A DNA stretch of 64,000 bases from Spirosoma fluviale. Its GTDB lineage: Bacteria > Bacteroidota > Bacteroidia > Cytophagales > Spirosomataceae. Both the position numbers and the translations under genes were made by a program. The notes under the pieces were generated by a model, which did no database searches, was not told the origin of the DNA, and saw only the letters and a list, made by a program, of their open reading frames with translations. The stretch covers positions 1 to 64,000 of the forward strand of contig CAMDRO010000008.1 in the NCBI GenBank assembly GCA_945906795.1, given 5' to 3'. Shown here one piece after another: positions 2,644 to 64,000 of this stretch (position 1 is its first letter; each line of letters begins with the position of its first letter).

Positions 2644-3192
2644 TTAAAGGGCTCCAGTAGATACCCAAGTATTTTTCTTTTTATCGTAAGTCAAATATTT
2701 ATCCGGCCATTCGACGTAATGTTTCATTGGCATATATTCGTCTAAGTTTCCTTTCTTCACTAATTCTGTGAAAAGAAATGAGCCGCGTTCTTCTACTAAC
2801 TCCTCTGAAAAATGAGGTGTGTTGACCACCTCCTCAAAATTCTCAGGCATAAGGCTTCCATCTTTTAACCTAAACTTACCAACAACACCGCGGCGCAAAC
2901 TTTTTAAATTCGCCACTGGCCTACTCAATAAAAAATAACATTCTCCATTTTCCATTTTTGTCAATTTGACAAAGTGATATAATGGCAATCGGCTGACATA
3001 TTCAGCCCTAAATTTCTTTTGAAACCTGTTGTCAAGGTTTCCATAAGTTGCATTTTCCGAGACGAAGGTTATCACATTGGTTAACAACGTATCTCGCTCA
3101 GCATCAGAGAAATAATATTCTGCTTCATCTTTAGAATGACAAGCTGAAAATATAAACAAACTGATGAATATTGGTGCAAGTATTTTTTTCAT
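2644..3192 (-). CDS. Small lipoprotein of unknown function downstream of the beta-helix lipoprotein
   Basis: 182 residues with a lipoprotein signal peptide (hydrophobic stretch 4-17, lipobox FSAC, Cys18), so it is probably membrane-anchored. The mature part is soluble and mixed alpha/beta, with no repeat or enzymatic motif that I recognise. It follows the beta-helix lipoprotein gene on the same strand. A strong terminator hairpin (3205-3237) sits only 12 bases before its ATG, leaving no room for an independent promoter between them. Expression is therefore probably by read-through from the receptor/beta-helix unit. It may be an accessory subunit of that system, but its function is unknown. 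Confidence 0.7.
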   Translation of the reverse strand: MKKILAPIFISLFIFSACHSKDEAEYYFSDAERDTLLTNVITFVSENATYGNLDNRFQKKFRAEYVSRLPLYHFVKLTKMENGECYFLLSRPVANLKSLRRGVVGKFRLKDGSLMPENFEEVVNTPHFSEELVEERGSFLFTELVKKGNLDEYMPMKHYVEWPDKYLTYDKKKNTWVSTGAL

Positions 3193-3248: not shown

Positions 3249-5009
3249 CTATTTTAAATAAAGAACTGTGTTAGGCGCAAATTCAGCCCAAGTAGCAGTC
3301 CAATCTGTATCCTTGAAAGCACCTATATAATCCGTAGCAGTTGTACCAGTTAACGTTGGCAAAGCTGTACCAATTAATGACTCAGTTCCACCAGCAGCTA
3401 CTGTGAAAGTAGGACGGCCAGAAAGAGCCCAAAGATTAGACGATATACCTGTATTTGCAGTAGACGCTAAAATTTTATTTCCAGCTATCCCTTTAAACCA
3501 ATCAGTAGGAGTTTCTGTACCAATAAGAATAGAAACACTAGTAGCTGATTTTGCTAATTGCTCAACATTAGAAACAGCAACACCCAAACCGTAGATGTTT
3601 GTATTACCTCCAGCGAAACCTGTAGTTCCTCCATGAGAAGCAGTACCCGCAATCACCATGTTTTTAGTTACTAATTCACCATTTAAAGCATTTGCTTTAG
3701 CGTTACCTCTTTGGCTATCAATGTACAAACCTGTAGGATAACCCGTCATGAATGTATTGTAAATTTTGATCTTAGTGTTACGGCGCAATTGAGCTCCATT
3801 TTGGAAGTTCAAATCTACGAAAGATGTGTTATTAGCTCTTGGCCCTATGATAGATACATTAGCAAATATAGGTGCCGTAAATGGAGTATTTCCAGTTCCA
3901 TTACCATCATTATCTACCTCAAAACCATTTGAACCTGAACCATCTGCTAAGTTTCCATCACGGTATCCTAATGCAAATTGAACTGTACCTGTCCAACCGA
4001 AATCGCAATCGAAATCATCATCTGTACCTTTATAAGCGATTAAATATTTACCATTAACTGTTCCACCGAACCACTCAAATGAATCATCTAAACCATAAGA
4101 AGCTTGAACATATTCTATAACGGTACCAGAACCAACTGATCCCATCGTTAATGTGTTAATCTCAGCATTAGGAATGATTGGAACACCCGCATACTCAATA
4201 CGTACATACTTTAAAGTTCCTGAATTATCATTATTTATAGTTCCACCGTGGAAACCTTTGTATGCACCTTCTAATTCGATGTTAGTACCTTGATTATTTA
4301 TAGCCTTACCACAAATAACAACTCCACCCCAGTCACCTGGATTACGTGCACCCACAGCTTGACCTGAAGTAAATACGATTGGCGCAGTAGCTGTACCGAT
4401 GGCATTTATTTTAGATCCACGATGCACAACTAAAGTACCTTTTGTTACGATATCACCGATAATAGTAGTTCCAGCTTCGATCGTTAAATTACCTATTTTA
4501 GTAACATTACCTGCAACTAACTCTTCACCCACGCGAACAAAACCTTTCAAGCGATAGATTTTATTGGCAGTCCAAGTTACATTACCTTCGATAATACCTT
4601 CCACGTCAACAATCGATTTTGGAGGGATAGCAGAAACTGTAACGGGAATAGCCAAAAAGGAAGATACCTGATTTTTAGCATCGGTTACTTGCAGTGTAAA
4701 ATTCACCGTCGTACCAGCCGTGCCATCAATCACATAATCTTTAACATACTCATACGTTTTTTCGCCTGTTAATACTTTTGAATCAAAAGCCGCACCATTT
4801 TTCAATACCGTGATTGACTTAATACCTGCAGGAGCATTGACCGTAGCTTTTACTTGAACAGTAGCACCTATGATACCCGCTAATGTACCGGATGAACTAA
4901 CTGAAGGAGCAGGAAAAACCTCTTCTTCTTTTTGACATGCTGTTAAAGTGACCAAGAAAATGGCCAAAATAGAAAGCAATTTGAACATGTTAATCTGTAA
5001 TTTTTTCAT
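3249..5009 (-). CDS. Secreted beta-helix lipoprotein paired with a TonB-dependent receptor
   Basis: 586 residues. The signal peptide has lipobox LTAC (Cys25), followed by an acidic QKEEE stretch as in surface-exposed Bacteroidota lipoproteins. Residues about 35-125 look like Ig-like/cadherin-type folds. From about 140 on there are Gly/Asn-rich, Ile/Val-rich turns (e.g. GDIVTKGTLVVHRGSKI, GDWGGVVICGKA, DNDGNGTGNTPF) typical of right-handed parallel beta-helices. It is 38 bases downstream of the TonB receptor, where a SusD would sit in a glycan system; there is no SusD here. This two-gene arrangement is widespread in Bacteroidota, and I recall similar pairs responding to phosphate limitation. 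A surface substrate-capture role is inferred and the ligand is unknown. Confidence 0.7.
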   Translation of the reverse strand: MKKLQINMFKLLSILAIFLVTLTACQKEEEVFPAPSVSSSGTLAGIIGATVQVKATVNAPAGIKSITVLKNGAAFDSKVLTGEKTYEYVKDYVIDGTAGTTVNFTLQVTDAKNQVSSFLAIPVTVSAIPPKSIVDVEGIIEGNVTWTANKIYRLKGFVRVGEELVAGNVTKIGNLTIEAGTTIIGDIVTKGTLVVHRGSKINAIGTATAPIVFTSGQAVGARNPGDWGGVVICGKAINNQGTNIELEGAYKGFHGGTINNDNSGTLKYVRIEYAGVPIIPNAEINTLTMGSVGSGTVIEYVQASYGLDDSFEWFGGTVNGKYLIAYKGTDDDFDCDFGWTGTVQFALGYRDGNLADGSGSNGFEVDNDGNGTGNTPFTAPIFANVSIIGPRANNTSFVDLNFQNGAQLRRNTKIKIYNTFMTGYPTGLYIDSQRGNAKANALNGELVTKNMVIAGTASHGGTTGFAGGNTNIYGLGVAVSNVEQLAKSATSVSILIGTETPTDWFKGIAGNKILASTANTGISSNLWALSGRPTFTVAAGGTESLIGTALPTLTGTTATDYIGAFKDTDWTATWAEFAPNTVLYLK

Positions 5010-5047: not shown

Positions 5048-7870
5048 CTATTTGTTAAATGGTGAAATCACCACACCTAAAGAAATTACTCTTCCTGGAA
5101 CATAAGACTGAATAATTTGATCTTTCCCTTTATCAAAATTATCATCTTGATTTCCGTCTTGTAATATATAATTGTCTTGATTTAATAAGTCCGTAACCCC
5201 TCCCTTAATCATAATCCATTTAGTAATTTCCTTCGAGAAATTTAAATCAACTACGTTTCTTGGCATTTCATACCAATCAGGATAAGGAGAACCAAAGTTA
5301 TTTCCTACAGCAAAGATTCGCTTGCCAATCACATTGTAATTAATATTTAATTGAAAGCCTTTTTTGGTGTCACTATAATTCAAACCTGCATTGATAATAT
5401 ACGGGGATTGTCCTTGCAAAGGACGATTATCCGACTGCGTCACAGCGATCGATGGGTCTAATTTGACACGGCTATAGATATAGGTGGCATTAAAAACTAC
5501 ACTTGTTTTTCCAAAAAATGAATTAGGGCGATCGGCTCCTAAGCTCTTCCTCATTTCCGCTTCTAGACCTGTTGAGAATGCCGATTGTGCATTCGCAAAA
5601 TTTAAAATTGGATTAGATCCAGCTTCGAAAATTACCTCGATTGGATTCGTAAAACTTTTGTAGAATGCCGCTATACTAAATAGTTCTGAAGGAGTAGGGT
5701 AATTCTCAAAACGAAAATCAAAGTTTTGTATATCTGCGTTTTTCAAAGTTGGATTACCCGAAATCGAACGATTATTTACGAAATCATAAAAAGAGAAAGG
5801 GGCTAATTCTCTGAATTCTGGTCTATTTAATGTCTTCCCATAAGCCAAACGAAGCAACGATTTCTCTGTAAAGTTATAGGTCAAGTTGACGGATGGCAAT
5901 AAATCTAACCGAGAGTTATCATAGTTGATGGCCTTCCCTAACTGGTCAAAAGAATTAAGCTTTTGTGCATTTTGCTCCCCTCGTAATCCAGCAATGACAT
6001 TAAGCTTTTTACCCAAAGCAAAATTGGCCGATGCATAGGCCGCAATCAAATTGTTTGTAGCCTTATAGGAGTCATTTGGATTCGTTTGCTCATCGATGCG
6101 AATACCTGTCACCGTATTAAAATTGGATGGATTGAACAGTTGATCAATTGGCAACGTAGTCTGGAATGATGGAGTAGATTTCACATACCCTAAATTCCTT
6201 GCTCCAAAATTTCTAGTTTTATCTTCATAAAATAAACCAGCCTTTAGCTCCAATTCATTTCCTGAATCTTTCGCGCCGACAGCCACTTTCTTAATTAAGT
6301 TTAAGGCTGCTGTTTGCGCATGCTCATCCAAATTAATAAAGGTTCTTCCTAAAACAGACGTTTGAGCCGCACCGTTCGGAATTAATAAACTTAAATTAGA
6401 ACCATCAGCATTGTAGCGGAAACGCTTGTAATCAGGCTGATTACGGAAGGCTGAATTGTAGCCTAACATCCAATCCATTTTTAAGGTACCCTCTTGGAAT
6501 TCATGACGGCCTGTCAACTGACCCGTATAAATACCTCTGAACACTTGGTCAAATGAACGAATATCCCAAATGGATCCATTGTCAAATCCATAGCGCTGAA
6601 TGTATTGCGTATTGGCTAATGAATTGTATAAATTTTTAAACTCAATGACAGATCCTCCTACAAATCTGGCTGACCAGTTGGTAGAAACCCCCACACGCAA
6701 TCCATTACTATATTGCTTGTCCTTGAAATTAAAGACATTGTCGGCTTTTCCCGTACGCTCAATTTGCGAATATCCATATTCATTACGATCCATCTGAAAG
6801 GTTGTCCGTGAATTTGAATAATTAACAGCCGTAATATTGCCAATCACCGTTTCTCCCAAATTGAATTTAAAACCACCCGATAAGGAAGCTCTCATATCTG
6901 GCAATGCACTTGCTTTATCTGCTACCCAAATATTTTTCAATGAAGCGCCCGCCACATCGCGAGCCGTTCCTGTCAAACTAATTAATTCCGAACGAGAAGC
7001 AGGGAAGAATTTAGGTAAGTTGAAATACCCTTGATCAAAACCTGACCAAGCCATATTAGAGTTTTTAGAGGCATAAAAATCAGCTCCTGTGGTCCCATCA
7101 CGATAAGAACTCGAAACATCTAAGGTTAAGAAATTATTTTCAGGAATCGATTTCGTGAAAATCTTCACTACTCCTCCAGCAAACTCGCCTGAGATTTCGG
7201 CCGAAGGTGATTTAAATACCAAAATACGATCTATCTGGCCAGCTGGAATAATGTCAAATGAAAAAGAACGTACATCCGTTTCCATGGATGGAGCGAAAGC
7301 ATTATTCAATTGAACCGTATTGTATCGCTCATTTAAACCACGGATATTGATGAAACGCTCTCCAAAAATAGTAACTCCAGGAACACGCTTAACAACCTCT
7401 GCCGCAGTACGATCTAAAGTCTTCGTGATTTGTGCGGCAGAAATTCCACTAACGACCAACTGAGCTACCTTAATTTCAGAAATAACGGAGACTTCTGTAT
7501 TGGTCAGTCGCTGAGCGACTACTTTAACTTCGGCTAACGTTGACGATTCTTCCGCAATGGTCAAATTCAAGTCAGTCACTTGGTCTGCCTCTACTTTCAC
7601 ATTTTCATAGATTTTTGATTGATATCCTACAAAAGAAATCTTTAATGAATAAGTGCCGACGGCTAATTTTCCAAAACTGAAAAAACCATTAATGTCTGTG
7701 GCAGCTCCTTTTGTAGAACCTTGTATTAATACAGTAGCTCCAATGATATCTTCTTTGGACTTTACATCTTTAATAGTTCCTCTAATAACCCCTGTTTGTT
7801 GGGCAAAAGATGCGATAGAAAGAAATAAGAAGACGAGTAAAAAGTAGACGCGTTGATTCAATAAAAACAT
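5048..7870 (-). CDS. TonB-dependent outer-membrane receptor with CarboxypepD-reg domain
   Basis: 940 residues from ATG 7870; a TTG-initiated extension to 7903 is less likely because the signal peptide (MFLLNQRVYFLLVFL..SFAQQ) starts at this ATG. Domains in order: signal peptide to about residue 24, CarboxypepD-reg-like beta-sandwich (about 27-105, GTIKDVKSKEDIIGATV to FVGYQSK), plug (about 130-240, with VPGVTIFGERFINIRGL), then a 22-strand barrel to the C-terminus. It should import a ligand across the outer membrane using TonB/ExbBD, with the adjacent lipoprotein as likely partner. It is not SusC-like in context because no SusD follows. Substrate is unknown. An upstream Pho-box-like element and nearby phosphonate genes suggest a phosphorus source. 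Confidence 0.88.
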   Translation of the reverse strand: MFLLNQRVYFLLVFLFLSIASFAQQTGVIRGTIKDVKSKEDIIGATVLIQGSTKGAATDINGFFSFGKLAVGTYSLKISFVGYQSKIYENVKVEADQVTDLNLTIAEESSTLAEVKVVAQRLTNTEVSVISEIKVAQLVVSGISAAQITKTLDRTAAEVVKRVPGVTIFGERFINIRGLNERYNTVQLNNAFAPSMETDVRSFSFDIIPAGQIDRILVFKSPSAEISGEFAGGVVKIFTKSIPENNFLTLDVSSSYRDGTTGADFYASKNSNMAWSGFDQGYFNLPKFFPASRSELISLTGTARDVAGASLKNIWVADKASALPDMRASLSGGFKFNLGETVIGNITAVNYSNSRTTFQMDRNEYGYSQIERTGKADNVFNFKDKQYSNGLRVGVSTNWSARFVGGSVIEFKNLYNSLANTQYIQRYGFDNGSIWDIRSFDQVFRGIYTGQLTGRHEFQEGTLKMDWMLGYNSAFRNQPDYKRFRYNADGSNLSLLIPNGAAQTSVLGRTFINLDEHAQTAALNLIKKVAVGAKDSGNELELKAGLFYEDKTRNFGARNLGYVKSTPSFQTTLPIDQLFNPSNFNTVTGIRIDEQTNPNDSYKATNNLIAAYASANFALGKKLNVIAGLRGEQNAQKLNSFDQLGKAINYDNSRLDLLPSVNLTYNFTEKSLLRLAYGKTLNRPEFRELAPFSFYDFVNNRSISGNPTLKNADIQNFDFRFENYPTPSELFSIAAFYKSFTNPIEVIFEAGSNPILNFANAQSAFSTGLEAEMRKSLGADRPNSFFGKTSVVFNATYIYSRVKLDPSIAVTQSDNRPLQGQSPYIINAGLNYSDTKKGFQLNINYNVIGKRIFAVGNNFGSPYPDWYEMPRNVVDLNFSKEITKWIMIKGGVTDLLNQDNYILQDGNQDDNFDKGKDQIIQSYVPGRVISLGVVISPFNK

Positions 7871-7900: not shown

Positions 7901-7908
7901 CAAAAATA
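7901..7908 (-). promoter_or_regulatory. -7 element for the TonB receptor gene, lacking a TTG -33 box
   Basis: On the minus strand the sequence is TATTTTTG, an exact TAnnTTTG. It would start transcription about 25 bases before ATG 7870. No TTG is found 18-21 bases upstream, which is what an activator-dependent promoter would look like. A degenerate TGTTAA-N5-TAAAAA repeat lies at 7920-7936, next to it. Confidence 0.42.
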
Positions 7909-7983
7909 ATTCACTCAGCTTTTTAAATGATTAACATAGCATTAGTCGTGCATTAATAAATCATTAAAAAAAACGACTTTTTG

Positions 7984-8000
7984 TTAACAATTCCTTAACA
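7984..8000. promoter_or_regulatory. Candidate Pho-box: TTAACA direct repeat with 11-base period
   Basis: TTAACA-ATTCC-TTAACA: two identical hexamers, one DNA turn apart, the geometry of PhoB/PhoP-type response-regulator sites. It is 113 bases upstream of the TonB receptor ATG. Fifteen bases (TTAACAATTCCTTAA) recur exactly upstream of the PiT phosphate transporter at 19344. Read towards the receptor it is TGTTAA-GGAAT-TGTTAA. Binding by a PhoB homologue is inferred. Confidence 0.42.
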
Positions 8001-8169: not shown

Positions 8170-8220
8170 ATTCAACAAACGGAAATAATTCCGCCTAAGT
8201 TTTTTTAAATAAATACGTTT

Positions 8221-8562
8221 ATGAAAAATTTCATCGCAGCTTTTATGTTTGCTGCTACCATGTCTGTCGCTTCTGTCGCCTCCGCTGCAGAATTAACCTC
8301 GCCTGTCAATATCGAACAAGTAGGTAAAATGAAATTCCTCGTTCGCACTGAACCTAAATCATCTCTCATTGTCATTATTTATGATGCAGAAAATAATATC
8401 CTTTATAATGAGCAAATTTCTAGCCAGAAATTATTTAGCTTCGCTGACCTTTCAGATGGAAAATATAGAATGGAAGTATTAGACTCTCGCAAGAAATTAG
8501 TTCAATCAAAATCTTTTAATATCCAAACAGAAGTGAAACGCGACTTAGTTGCGATCCAATAA
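8221..8562 (+). CDS. Small secreted protein, Ig-like/DUF3244-like
   Basis: 113 residues. The signal peptide (hydrophobic 5-18, then VASVASA-A) predicts export and cleavage near residue 22. The mature 90 residues read as a compact beta-sandwich: alternating strands (SSLIVIIYDAENNILYNEQI, then YRMEVLDSRKKLVQSKSFNI) resembling the small extracellular Ig-like domains of DUF3244-type and similar Bacteroidota proteins. No enzymatic motif is visible. It has its own consensus promoter (8141-8169) and a strong terminator, so it forms a monocistronic unit that may be well expressed. Function unknown. Confidence 0.75.
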   Translation: MKNFIAAFMFAATMSVASVASAAELTSPVNIEQVGKMKFLVRTEPKSSLIVIIYDAENNILYNEQISSQKLFSFADLSDGKYRMEVLDSRKKLVQSKSFNIQTEVKRDLVAIQ

Positions 8563-19343: not shown

Positions 19344-19360
19344 TTAACAATTCCTTAATA
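19344..19360. promoter_or_regulatory. Candidate Pho-box upstream of the PiT phosphate transporter
   Basis: TTAACA-ATTCC-TTAATA, identical over 15 bases to the element at 7984-8000 and with the same 11-base repeat period. It ends 73 bases before the transporter ATG. Regulation by a PhoB-type activator is inferred from the repeat geometry and the gene it precedes. Confidence 0.42.
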
Positions 19361-19433
19361 CCTTTATAAAAACACTTACATTCATATTATCGATCTTTAT
19401 TAAGATTAACCAATACCTTAATTAATTTAACCC

Positions 19434-20891
19434 ATGTTTGGACTTGACCCCACCCTGTTTTTCCTCCTATTCTTTTGCTTATTTGCCGCTTGTGCTTTTG
19501 AATTTGTCAACGGATTTCACGACACAGCAAATGCCGTGGCCACTGTCATTTATACTCATTCGTTAAAGCCTACACAGGCGGTGGTTTGGTCAGGATTCAT
19601 GAATTTTCTTGGTTTATTGACCGGTGGCGTAGGGGTTACGATGAGCATTATTGGACTCCTCCCCACAGAACTCCTCATTGATTCTAATGTGTATCATTCC
19701 ATGGCCATGGCACTTGCTTTATTGCTTTCCGCCATATTATGGAATTTAGGAACTTGGTATTTAGGTATTCCAGCATCAAGTTCCCATACATTGATTGGTT
19801 CTATTATTGGAATTGGTTTAGGTCACGCACTCTTACCAGAAAATTCGAATAAAGATGTTTCGGCGGTCAACTGGGATAAGGTCATTGAGATAGGCCAAGC
19901 GCTATTCCTTTCCCCATTATTTGGTTTTTCTCTAGCAATTATATTGATGTATATATTAAAGAAGACCATTTCAAATAAGGATATCTTTAAAGAGCCCAAG
20001 AAAAACTCTCCTCCCCCCTTGTGGATAAGGTCTATCTTAATTTTTACGTGTACGATGGTTTCATTTTTCCATGGAAGAAACGACGGACAAAAAGGAATCG
20101 GCTTAGTGATGGTTATTCTAATCGCATTTCTACCCGGATATTTTGCCATTAATACCTCATTGGATTTAAATATTGTGCAAAACAGTTTGAACACAGTGCA
20201 AACGGTTTCAGCTAAAATTGATACCCTTCCACTGTCAGAAAAAGAATTAGATAGCTACCACAAATTAGTGGCATCTTCGGCAGGTTTAAAAGTTATTTTA
20301 GCTTCTAAGCCTGACATAACTCATCTAAGTACCACTCAAAAATTCGATATACGAAAGGCTGCGTTAACGATTAATAAGCATGCTAAAAAATTAATCGAGA
20401 GCGAGTCTGTTTCCCTTTCGGATGGAGATAAATCCGCGTTCAAAAAAGCAACTCAAGGGGATAAAGCACCCTTCTTTGCCTTTGGTGCTTCTTCTGCTAC
20501 AGGAATGGCGGGGGTGACCGATTTTGCTCCTGCTTGGGTTATGTGGATGATCGCACTTTCATTAGGTTTAGGAACGATGATTGGTTGGAAAAGAATTGTC
20601 ATTACCATCGGAGAAAAAATTGGCAAAGACCATTTAACGTACGCGCAAGGAGCCTCAGCAGAATTAATCGCTTCGATTACCATCGGATTAGCCACGGCCT
20701 ATAAATGGCCTGTAAGTACCACACACGTATTAAGTTCAGGTATTGCCGGTACTATGGTGGCGTCCAGAGGAATAAAAAATCTACAGGGAGGAACCGTAAA
20801 AAATATCGTGATGGCTTGGGTATTAACACTTCCCGTGACCATCATTTTATCAGCCTTGTTGTTCGTGTTTTTCCGTTGGATCATAGGCTAA
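19434..20891 (+). CDS. PiT-family inorganic phosphate transporter
   Basis: 485 residues, polytopic. The two inverted PiT signatures are present: FVNGFHDTANAVATVI near residue 25 and FFHGRNDGQKGIGLVM near residue 210, plus GIPASSSHTLIG and KWPVSTTHVLSSGIAG. A hydrophilic loop of about 90 residues separates the halves (about 245-345), as is common in Bacteroidota PiT proteins. It imports phosphate, probably as a metal-phosphate complex, with protons or sodium. It has no neighbouring PhoU-like gene. The Pho-box-like element upstream suggests phosphate control. Confidence 0.9.
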   Translation: MFGLDPTLFFLLFFCLFAACAFEFVNGFHDTANAVATVIYTHSLKPTQAVVWSGFMNFLGLLTGGVGVTMSIIGLLPTELLIDSNVYHSMAMALALLLSAILWNLGTWYLGIPASSSHTLIGSIIGIGLGHALLPENSNKDVSAVNWDKVIEIGQALFLSPLFGFSLAIILMYILKKTISNKDIFKEPKKNSPPPLWIRSILIFTCTMVSFFHGRNDGQKGIGLVMVILIAFLPGYFAINTSLDLNIVQNSLNTVQTVSAKIDTLPLSEKELDSYHKLVASSAGLKVILASKPDITHLSTTQKFDIRKAALTINKHAKKLIESESVSLSDGDKSAFKKATQGDKAPFFAFGASSATGMAGVTDFAPAWVMWMIALSLGLGTMIGWKRIVITIGEKIGKDHLTYAQGASAELIASITIGLATAYKWPVSTTHVLSSGIAGTMVASRGIKNLQGGTVKNIVMAWVLTLPVTIILSALLFVFFRWIIG

Positions 20892-62823: not shown

Positions 62824-64000
62824 ATGAAAAAAAATTACCTATTACTCATTCTTATTTTTATCTCCTTTTCTAGCTTTAGCCAAGGCCAAAAACGTTATAA
62901 AAATATAGTGTTTGAATCCATCGACACTCTGATGAACATTCCATATGGTCAATCGACCAACATAAAAAATGAAATTGAGAAGCACTCCCTGGATGTCTAC
63001 TCTCCTAAAAATGATACACTGAAAAAACGTCCATTAGTCGTTTTTGTCCATGGGGGCGGTTTTGTGAATGGCGATAAACGAACTGGCTATTCTAGAGTCG
63101 TTTCGGAAAACTTAAGTCAAAGAGGTTTTGTGGTGGGGTCTATTAATTACCGATTGGGAATTGCAGAGCCTAAATCAGATGTGTCCTATTTTGAGGCCAT
63201 GATTCGCGCGGTTCAAGATGCAAAAGCAGCGATTCGTTTTTTTAGAAAAAATGCGGAAAACTATGGCATCGATACAAGTAAAATTTACATTGCGGGAGGA
63301 TCTGCCGGTGCGATGACCGCATTGCATTTGGCCTATTTGGACCAAAAAGAGGTTCCCGCTTACATCGATTTGGCAAAAAATGGCAGCATGGAAGGGACTT
63401 CGGGCAACGAAGGGTTTTCGTCTAAAATACATGGAGTGGTCAATTTCTGGGGGGCAATGGTCAATATTAATTGGCTTAATAGTGGAGATCTTCCCGTATT
63501 TAATGTGCATGGCACGGCCGATAAAACAGTTCCTTTTGATTCCTCTTTTGCCTACCATAATTTTAAATATGGGAGCCAAATTATTTTTGAAAGAGCCTTA
63601 AACCAGGGGGTACCTACGGGCGTCAAGTTATCTGAAAATTTAGGTCACACCTTAGATAACAATAAGCCCGCCATAATTGCCTCGCTACAGGAAGTTGGCG
63701 AATGGCTATATGCCCTCATCAATCGAACTAAAACAACGCCAAATATCACTCGATTTGAAAAAGAGATAAAAGCACATGAATTGGAAGATTCAAAAACGAA
63801 TTACTCATCCAATGCGATATTATTTACGGGCAGCTCTTTCATCCGATTATGGAAAACCATTAAAAAAGACTTGGCCCCAGCTGAAATTATTCACCATGGA
63901 TTTGGGGGATCAAACATCAGCGAAATGGCTTATTACATTCCTAGGATCGCTTTTAATCATTCCTTAAAGGCGATTTATATGTACTCAGGATCTAATGATT
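62824..64000 (+). CDS. Secreted alpha/beta-hydrolase fused to an SGNH/GDSL hydrolase domain (3' end outside window)
   Basis: The open frame runs from ATG 62824 to the window end, 392 codons visible. Signal peptide LLLILIFISFSSFSQ. The first domain is an esterase-type alpha/beta hydrolase: oxyanion loop HGGG (76-79), nucleophile S160 in GGSAG, acid D233 (NVHGTADKTV), base H275 (ENLGHTLD). From about residue 330 a second, SGNH-type domain starts: FTGSSFIRLW (block I, Ser337), HHGFGGSNISE (block II), YSGSND (block III), then the window ends. Two esterase folds in one secreted chain suggest de-esterification of a plant or algal polysaccharide. The fusion seems real because the frame is continuous. 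Confidence 0.82.
   Translation, partial: MKKNYLLLILIFISFSSFSQGQKRYKNIVFESIDTLMNIPYGQSTNIKNEIEKHSLDVYSPKNDTLKKRPLVVFVHGGGFVNGDKRTGYSRVVSENLSQRGFVVGSINYRLGIAEPKSDVSYFEAMIRAVQDAKAAIRFFRKNAENYGIDTSKIYIAGGSAGAMTALHLAYLDQKEVPAYIDLAKNGSMEGTSGNEGFSSKIHGVVNFWGAMVNINWLNSGDLPVFNVHGTADKTVPFDSSFAYHNFKYGSQIIFERALNQGVPTGVKLSENLGHTLDNNKPAIIASLQEVGEWLYALINRTKTTPNITRFEKEIKAHELEDSKTNYSSNAILFTGSSFIRLWKTIKKDLAPAEIIHHGFGGSNISEMAYYIPRIAFNHSLKAIYMYSGSND

Follow-up and report, generated by a model that had tools for sequence, protein, structure and literature searches.

PHO boxes, the operator sites of PhoB/PhoP in E. coli, B. subtilis and S. coelicolor, consist of 11-nt direct repeats, at least two of which stand in tandem before phosphate genes, with unit cores reading CTGTCAT in E. 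coli and GTTCACC in S. coelicolor (according to the part of PMC4415409 dealing with these boxes). In Bacteroidota, the PhoP protein of Riemerella anatipestifer binds sites whose most conserved nucleotides are TTTAACA at 583 peaks in vitro, including its own promoter and a TonB-receptor promoter; the available sections of that report describe one motif at these peaks, and no 11-nt register, -7 phasing or PiT target (PMC9603813). In F. johnsoniae, a TonB receptor and a pectin-lyase-fold lipoprotein encoded beside phoBR (Fjoh_0543-0546) rise by 8.02 and 9.91 (column FC) upon phosphate depletion, in a paper whose main text mentions neither 'Pho box' nor 'promoter' (PMC8115612). The Pho box is mentioned for B. 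fragilis PhoB, in a passage giving no sequence (PMC3547664). Within the accessible portions of the Bacteroidota Pho-box literature we found no description of an array of the kind reported below, the closest being PMC9603813.

The window (the whole analysed stretch of 64,000 nt), from a freshwater bacterium, exhibits a related element before a PiT phosphate transporter gene and before a TonB receptor/lipoprotein operon. Like the PHO boxes of PMC4415409, it is made of two or more tandem 11-nt direct units upstream of phosphate genes, but the unit core is TTAACAT. We would class it as a variant of the known PHO-box type, set apart by the locking of the units in register with the Bacteroidota -7 box TAnnTTTG (a consensus described in the relevant part of PMC9723704) and by an inverted box added at one promoter. 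With the Riemerella sites it shares the phylum, the TTTAACA nucleotides and, presumably, the regulator's own promoter and a TonB-receptor promoter as targets. The F. johnsoniae locus is similar in combining phoBR with a TonB receptor and a lipoprotein, and in a related genome (G005) a PhoB-like gene likewise lies divergent from the receptor; this comparison holds at the domain level only, Fjoh_0545 being assigned to pf14905 in PMC8115612 and the window receptor to PF00593.

The initial annotation had drawn attention to a 15-mer shared by the two upstream regions, and TTAACAATTCCTTAA is indeed found exactly at 7984-7998 and 19344-19358. Its description of the geometry is also accurate: two TTAACA-type halves follow each other with an 11-nt period (TTAACA-N5-TTAACA at 7984, with TTAATA as the second half at 19344), 113 nt separate the 7984 site from the receptor ATG (7870), and the two sites are oppositely oriented relative to their genes. 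The match had been rated uncommon but not negligible, which agrees with our counts: allowing up to two mismatches, the window contains 4 matches to the 15-mer where 0.90 would be expected, and a single shuffle out of 100 attained 4. In the own genome (a 2.63 Mb draft, 94.67% complete), the exact TTAACA-N5-TTAACA occurs twice, at 7984 and inside an ORF. Two near matches in the window were rejected as promoter boxes: the one at 565 (-) ends 1 nt ahead of a GNAT gene's start codon, and the one at 63953 sits inside a 508-aa ORF. Since it is conserved across relatives, the 15-mer is judged to be non-random and under selection, the match in the window alone being just mildly unusual.

The receptor promoter has the exact -7 box that had been reported for it (TATTTTTG, 7901..7908, read from 7908 to 7901 on the minus strand), matching TAnnTTTG. 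In front of it, at 7924..7967 (-), four tandem 11-nt units (TTAATGATTTA, TTAATGCACGA, CTAATGCTATG and TTAATCATTTA) stand at distances of 59, 48, 37 and 26 nt from it. This array had been overlooked. The 7984 box, taken earlier for the receptor element, is real, but it is an extra inverted box; as far as register and conservation indicate, the array is the main element of the receptor promoter and the main operator of the operon. Among the promoters of the genus (Aquirufa in all our counts, as inferred from named relatives), 21 were usable, nine of 30 loci having been dropped for contig edges, partial sequence or a misplaced start (L339, L340, L349, L354, L355, L360-L363). With the units used as a guide to the -7 box, all 21 keep three or more of the four units intact: nTAA stands at -59, -37 and -26 in every promoter and at -48 in 15 of them. 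The 21 usable receptor promoters of other genera likewise all have three or more units, and six have the full four; seven of these 28 promoters were dropped because they had no exact -7 box with units or a misplaced start. A phase count in which the last TAnnTTTG was taken as the -7 box irrespective of the units (L345 being counted from a wrong -7 box) placed TAAY almost exclusively in one of 11 phases, with 0.69 per site in the genus receptors (21 promoters), 0.71 in those of other genera (22 of 28 promoters), and at most 0.04 in other phases of both sets. The four-unit pattern with its -7 box occurs once in the own genome without mismatch; the three further matches have 3 mismatches each, and the reversed control yields 4 matches with up to 3 mismatches. 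Only one of the 91 TAnnTTTG sites in the window has four phased units.

The PiT gene (19434..20891, +; PF01384, E-value = 3.1e-88) is preceded by a two-unit element, TTAACAATTCC followed by TTAATA, at 19344..19360 (+); this 17-mer is identical in the window and its closest relatives (L270-L277). PiT relatives are found in 100 of 101 family genomes, and many of their upstream regions contain TTTAACAATTCCTTAACATTG or a near form. In a separately fetched set of named taxa (Aquirufa, Sandaracinomonas, Flectobacillus, Arcicella, Pseudarcicella, Dyadobacter, Rudanella, MAGs and a few distant loci), TTAAYA-N6-TAAYA lies within 250 nt upstream of PiT in the same orientation in 53 of 66 loci and in the opposite orientation in none, three of 69 loci with too little upstream DNA being left out. 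The box is missing by pattern in 13 of the 66, four of which show near matches (L283, L296, L299, L316). An exact TAnnTTTG is present in 22 of 29 family PiT promoters, all 22 having TAAY at -25 and 21 having it also at -36. The preferred phase holds 2.05 TAAY per promoter (22 of 29 promoters, those without an exact TAnnTTTG and also L060 being dropped) and the other phases at most 0.09. The claimed PiT box thus stands as a conserved two-unit box, with the amendment that in the clade to which the window belongs its second half is altered and no exact -7 box stands at the usual distance. A candidate shifted -7 box, TACCTTTA (19359..19366, +), starts 15 nt after the box start, overlapping the second half of the box. 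Because it stands where L279, L282 and L298 have TATATTTG, also 15 nt after the box start, a displacement of the PiT promoter by two repeat lengths is possible in this clade; in many other PiT loci TAnnTTTG stands at 37 nt. Two PiT matches per genome were observed in G040, G045, G069, G080 and G099, in tandem in the first three.

Whether such boxes cluster before phosphate-type genes, a check suggested in the initial annotation, was examined by pattern scans, and PiT emerged as the biggest group. In 101 family genomes, TTAACAN6TAACATTG gave 113 matches against 15 for the reversed control. Thirty-eight lie before PiT at less than 500 bp and point the same way as the gene, with no oppositely oriented match there; nine precede a receptor (one of them in opposite orientation), five a PhoB-like regulator, three OprO/P porins (one recognized by Pfam, two by similarity) and one a second PiT-family gene. 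The other 57 have no assignment to phosphate-type genes, only some clusters having been identified among the 66 matches outside PiT and receptor. A class-wide scan of 198 genomes for box plus -7 box returned 41 matches against 3 for the reversed control, and 29 loci besides the own genome were looked at from these. Sixteen of the 29 stand before PiT, OprO/P, Na/Pi-cotransporter or PhoB-like genes: 11 with a PiT homologue, 3 with OprO/P, 1 with a Na/Pi-cotransporter and 1 with a PhoB-like gene; one further locus has a TonB receptor and 12 are mixed. Matches in related genomes are not independent, and the 11 PiT loci represent 5 families. In these loci a DUF47/PhoU_div-type gene precedes PiT, as tested by Pfam in one and judged by eye from similar start sequences in the others. 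The genus scan gave 49 matches against 7 in the control, with a spacing of 27 nt in 31 and 37 nt in 15. In the own genome, the PiT box pattern with up to 3 mismatches is at background (13 matches against 9 in the control), except for the 7984 box and the regulator box. The second-best match to this pattern there, TTAACAATTTTTTAATATTA (G000:C23:12279-12298, L161), has 2 mismatches and precedes an 83-aa ORF.

In 11 genomes (L098, L106, L108, L112, L126, L142, L150, L151, L154, L156, L158), the box precedes a protein of about 115 aa with a weak TonB_C match, and some of these loci, such as L112, carry longer 11-nt arrays; the protein is possibly a further regulon member, or its box another regulator's site. 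The Pst system was rejected as a further target, no box pattern being present in L210-L230 (21 PF12849 loci scanned of 30). The own genome has a single PF12849 match (C28), located behind a TonB-like gene, and the 3.5 kb covered there contain no Pst gene; because the assembly is 94.67% complete, we do not claim the absence of Pst.

A box before the gene of the phosphate regulator itself is a typical PHO feature. The own draft genome contains three OmpR-family regulators, and within the fetched flanks (about 1.5 kb on each side; at L398 the preceding kinase gene is covered except for its start) only that at C17:9582-10274 has a box. This box is the sole own-genome match of the genus scan; TATATTTG follows 27 nt after its start, and the -7 box ends 35 nt before the ATG. 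The protein combines a receiver domain (PF00072) with an OmpR-type winged helix (PF00486). Its best NCBIfam matches are PhoB TIGR02154 (202.7 against a cut-off of 296.2) and Bacteroidota PhoB NF053854 (192.6 against 270 bits); being below both cut-offs, it is called PhoB-like only. No histidine kinase adjoins it, and a pair recognized by eye as LytTR-type regulator and kinase is encoded at a distance of 1.2-2.9 kb. Among closer genera, 17 of 21 promoters contain such a box before the regulator gene, and by eye L194 is the only one of 10 more distant loci to show it; the phase count for regulators left out these 10 of 31 promoters as well as the 4 of 21 without an exact TAnnTTTG. A second PhoB-like regulator (L205, 5583-6278, -; G005:C10), 57% identical to the G052 query regulator, is divergent from the receptor operon, and copies of such a second regulator also occur on the receptor contig in several other genomes.

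It is very likely that the shared element is a phosphate-starvation control site and not a chance repeat. We further consider it probable that the element is the Pho box of a Bacteroidota lineage (Aquirufa), and that the C17 regulator drives PiT, the receptor operon and its own gene under phosphate shortage. Three features expected of a PHO box were found here: at least two direct 11-nt units (two at PiT, four at the receptor), a position upstream of phosphate genes across genomes (PiT, OprO/P, Na/Pi-cotransporter), and a box before the C17 regulator gene. The boxes have a common sequence and register, are conserved, and are associated with phosphate-type genes across family and class, in support of the Pho-box reading that had been put forward; from these observations we infer the identity of the regulator, activation and the phosphate signal. 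Each unit, of the type nTAACATTnnn and arranged as 11-nt direct repeats, would accommodate a single DNA-binding domain of a response regulator of the OmpR/PhoB family, for which the orphan protein at C17:9582-10274 is the most likely candidate. At low phosphate, this regulator, once phosphorylated, would line up head-to-tail on the units and bring RNA polymerase to the TAnnTTTG -7 box in a fixed register, so that the PiT importer, the TonB receptor/lipoprotein operon and the regulator gene would all be raised. With such a system, Bacteroidota would have a concrete Pho box, locked in register, for which one genome after another can be searched, and a widespread TonB receptor/lipoprotein operon would find its place in a likely phosphate response.

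Two other explanations of the shared element deserve consideration. That it reflects a chance match between two AT-rich intergenic stretches might be entertained from the window alone, where one shuffle in 100 also reached 4 matches, but the conservation, the register and the reversed-pattern controls contradict this and reduce its probability to nearly nothing. The binder could also be an OmpR-family regulator answering a broader envelope or nutrient signal, with phosphate genes being just part of its targets. A TTTAACA-binding regulator need not be phosphate-specific, because Riemerella PhoP has 583 binding peaks (as given in the relevant section of PMC9603813); about half of the family matches (57/113) are without a phosphate-type assignment, and the C17 regulator scores under both PhoB cut-offs and lacks a neighbouring kinase. 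Against such a broad role, the biggest single group class-wide is that of PiT operons (11/29, 5 families), followed by OprO/P (3) and the Na/Pi-cotransporter, and PiT is also the biggest group in the family scan (38/113). We regard the broader signal as unlikely, and retain a phosphate-responsive Pho box as the preferred reading.

A similar choice arises for the inverted box at 7984..8000 (+), which consists of two exact units, TTAACAATTCC and TTAACA, inverted with respect to the receptor and 75 nt from its -7 box. With the units again guiding the choice of the -7 box, 20 of 21 genus promoters have an inverted box 74-75 nt away that matches 9 or more of the 11 fixed letters, against none of 21 from other genera; at a threshold of 8 letters, it is found in all 21 genus promoters (8 letters in L005) and in one of the 21 others (8 in L021). 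The sequence separating the two boxes is variable. The inverted box points toward the divergent 8221 gene, which is kept in all 21 loci, and could serve that gene instead of the receptor; its distances to the divergent -7 box, where found (20 of 21 loci), are 124, 146, 155-156, 166 and 177-179 nt, near whole 10.5-bp turns, which is a weak argument. The divergent distance nevertheless varies by 55 nt (124-179 nt), whereas the gap to the receptor -7 box is fixed at 74-75 nt in 21/21, and a TAnnTTTG within 90 nt on the plus side accompanies just 2 of 16 listed boxes (L348, L357). Because of this fixed gap and variable divergent distance, we take the 7984 box as probably belonging to the receptor operator, and consider service to the 8221 gene rather improbable, if somewhat less so than the broader signal discussed above. 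The receptor operator would then combine the four direct units with the inverted pair of units, placed 74-75 nt ahead of the -7 box. More tentatively, and with somewhat less than even confidence, we suggest that the Aquirufa receptor promoter is a two-sided operator, in which the four direct Pho units in -7 register are faced by the inverted box and the regulator forms one nucleoprotein complex of two oppositely oriented filaments. Such an arrangement might serve, for example, as an all-or-none starvation switch or in the coordination of two divergent operons; searches of the Pho-box literature, not aimed at inverted boxes, found none of this kind. The fixed inverted box together with the four-unit array offers a clean test case for regulator assembly on TAnnTTTG promoters.

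The operon controlled by this promoter begins with the TonB-dependent receptor (5051..7870, -; CarbopepD_reg_2, Plug and beta-barrel domains; probable start ATG 7870), relatives of which (E-values up to 1e-60) are present in 99 of 101 family genomes. The next gene (3249..5009, -) encodes a strand-rich lipoprotein and is found downstream of the receptor in 54 of 58 loci (L013 and L205 being the same place), the four misses ending at contig ends. Its AF2 model has a mean pLDDT of 72.4, with 10-residue blocks at 80-97 over residues 31-350. In a fold search the N-terminal part resembles Ig/FN3-like modules and the remainder weakly resembles beta-helix enzymes (GH87 glucanase, K1 capsule lyase; TM at most 0.27). 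The protein probably has an Ig/FN3-like domain followed by a beta-helix; because the beta-helix matches are weak, we propose no substrate. A 182-aa lipoprotein-like protein (2644..3192, -) has no Pfam or NCBIfam match; in G005 the lipoprotein gene is followed by one for a 184-aa protein that looks similar by eye. On the other side, the divergent 113-aa gene (8221..8562, +), probably secreted as judged by eye, is kept beside the receptor in the genus, being found by tblastn in 21 of 21 loci examined including the window; it has a DUF3244 match below cut-off. An Rfam scan of the window at gathering thresholds gave no match. The leader of the 8221 gene contains a conserved hairpin-like stretch, CGGAAATAATTCCGCCTAAG (8180-8201), similar across the aligned genus loci. 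In each of the 8 genus genomes in the family sample, some 2.5-12.5 kb separate the receptor from PiT (5051-7870 and 19434-20891 in the window), which makes the two units neighbours as well.
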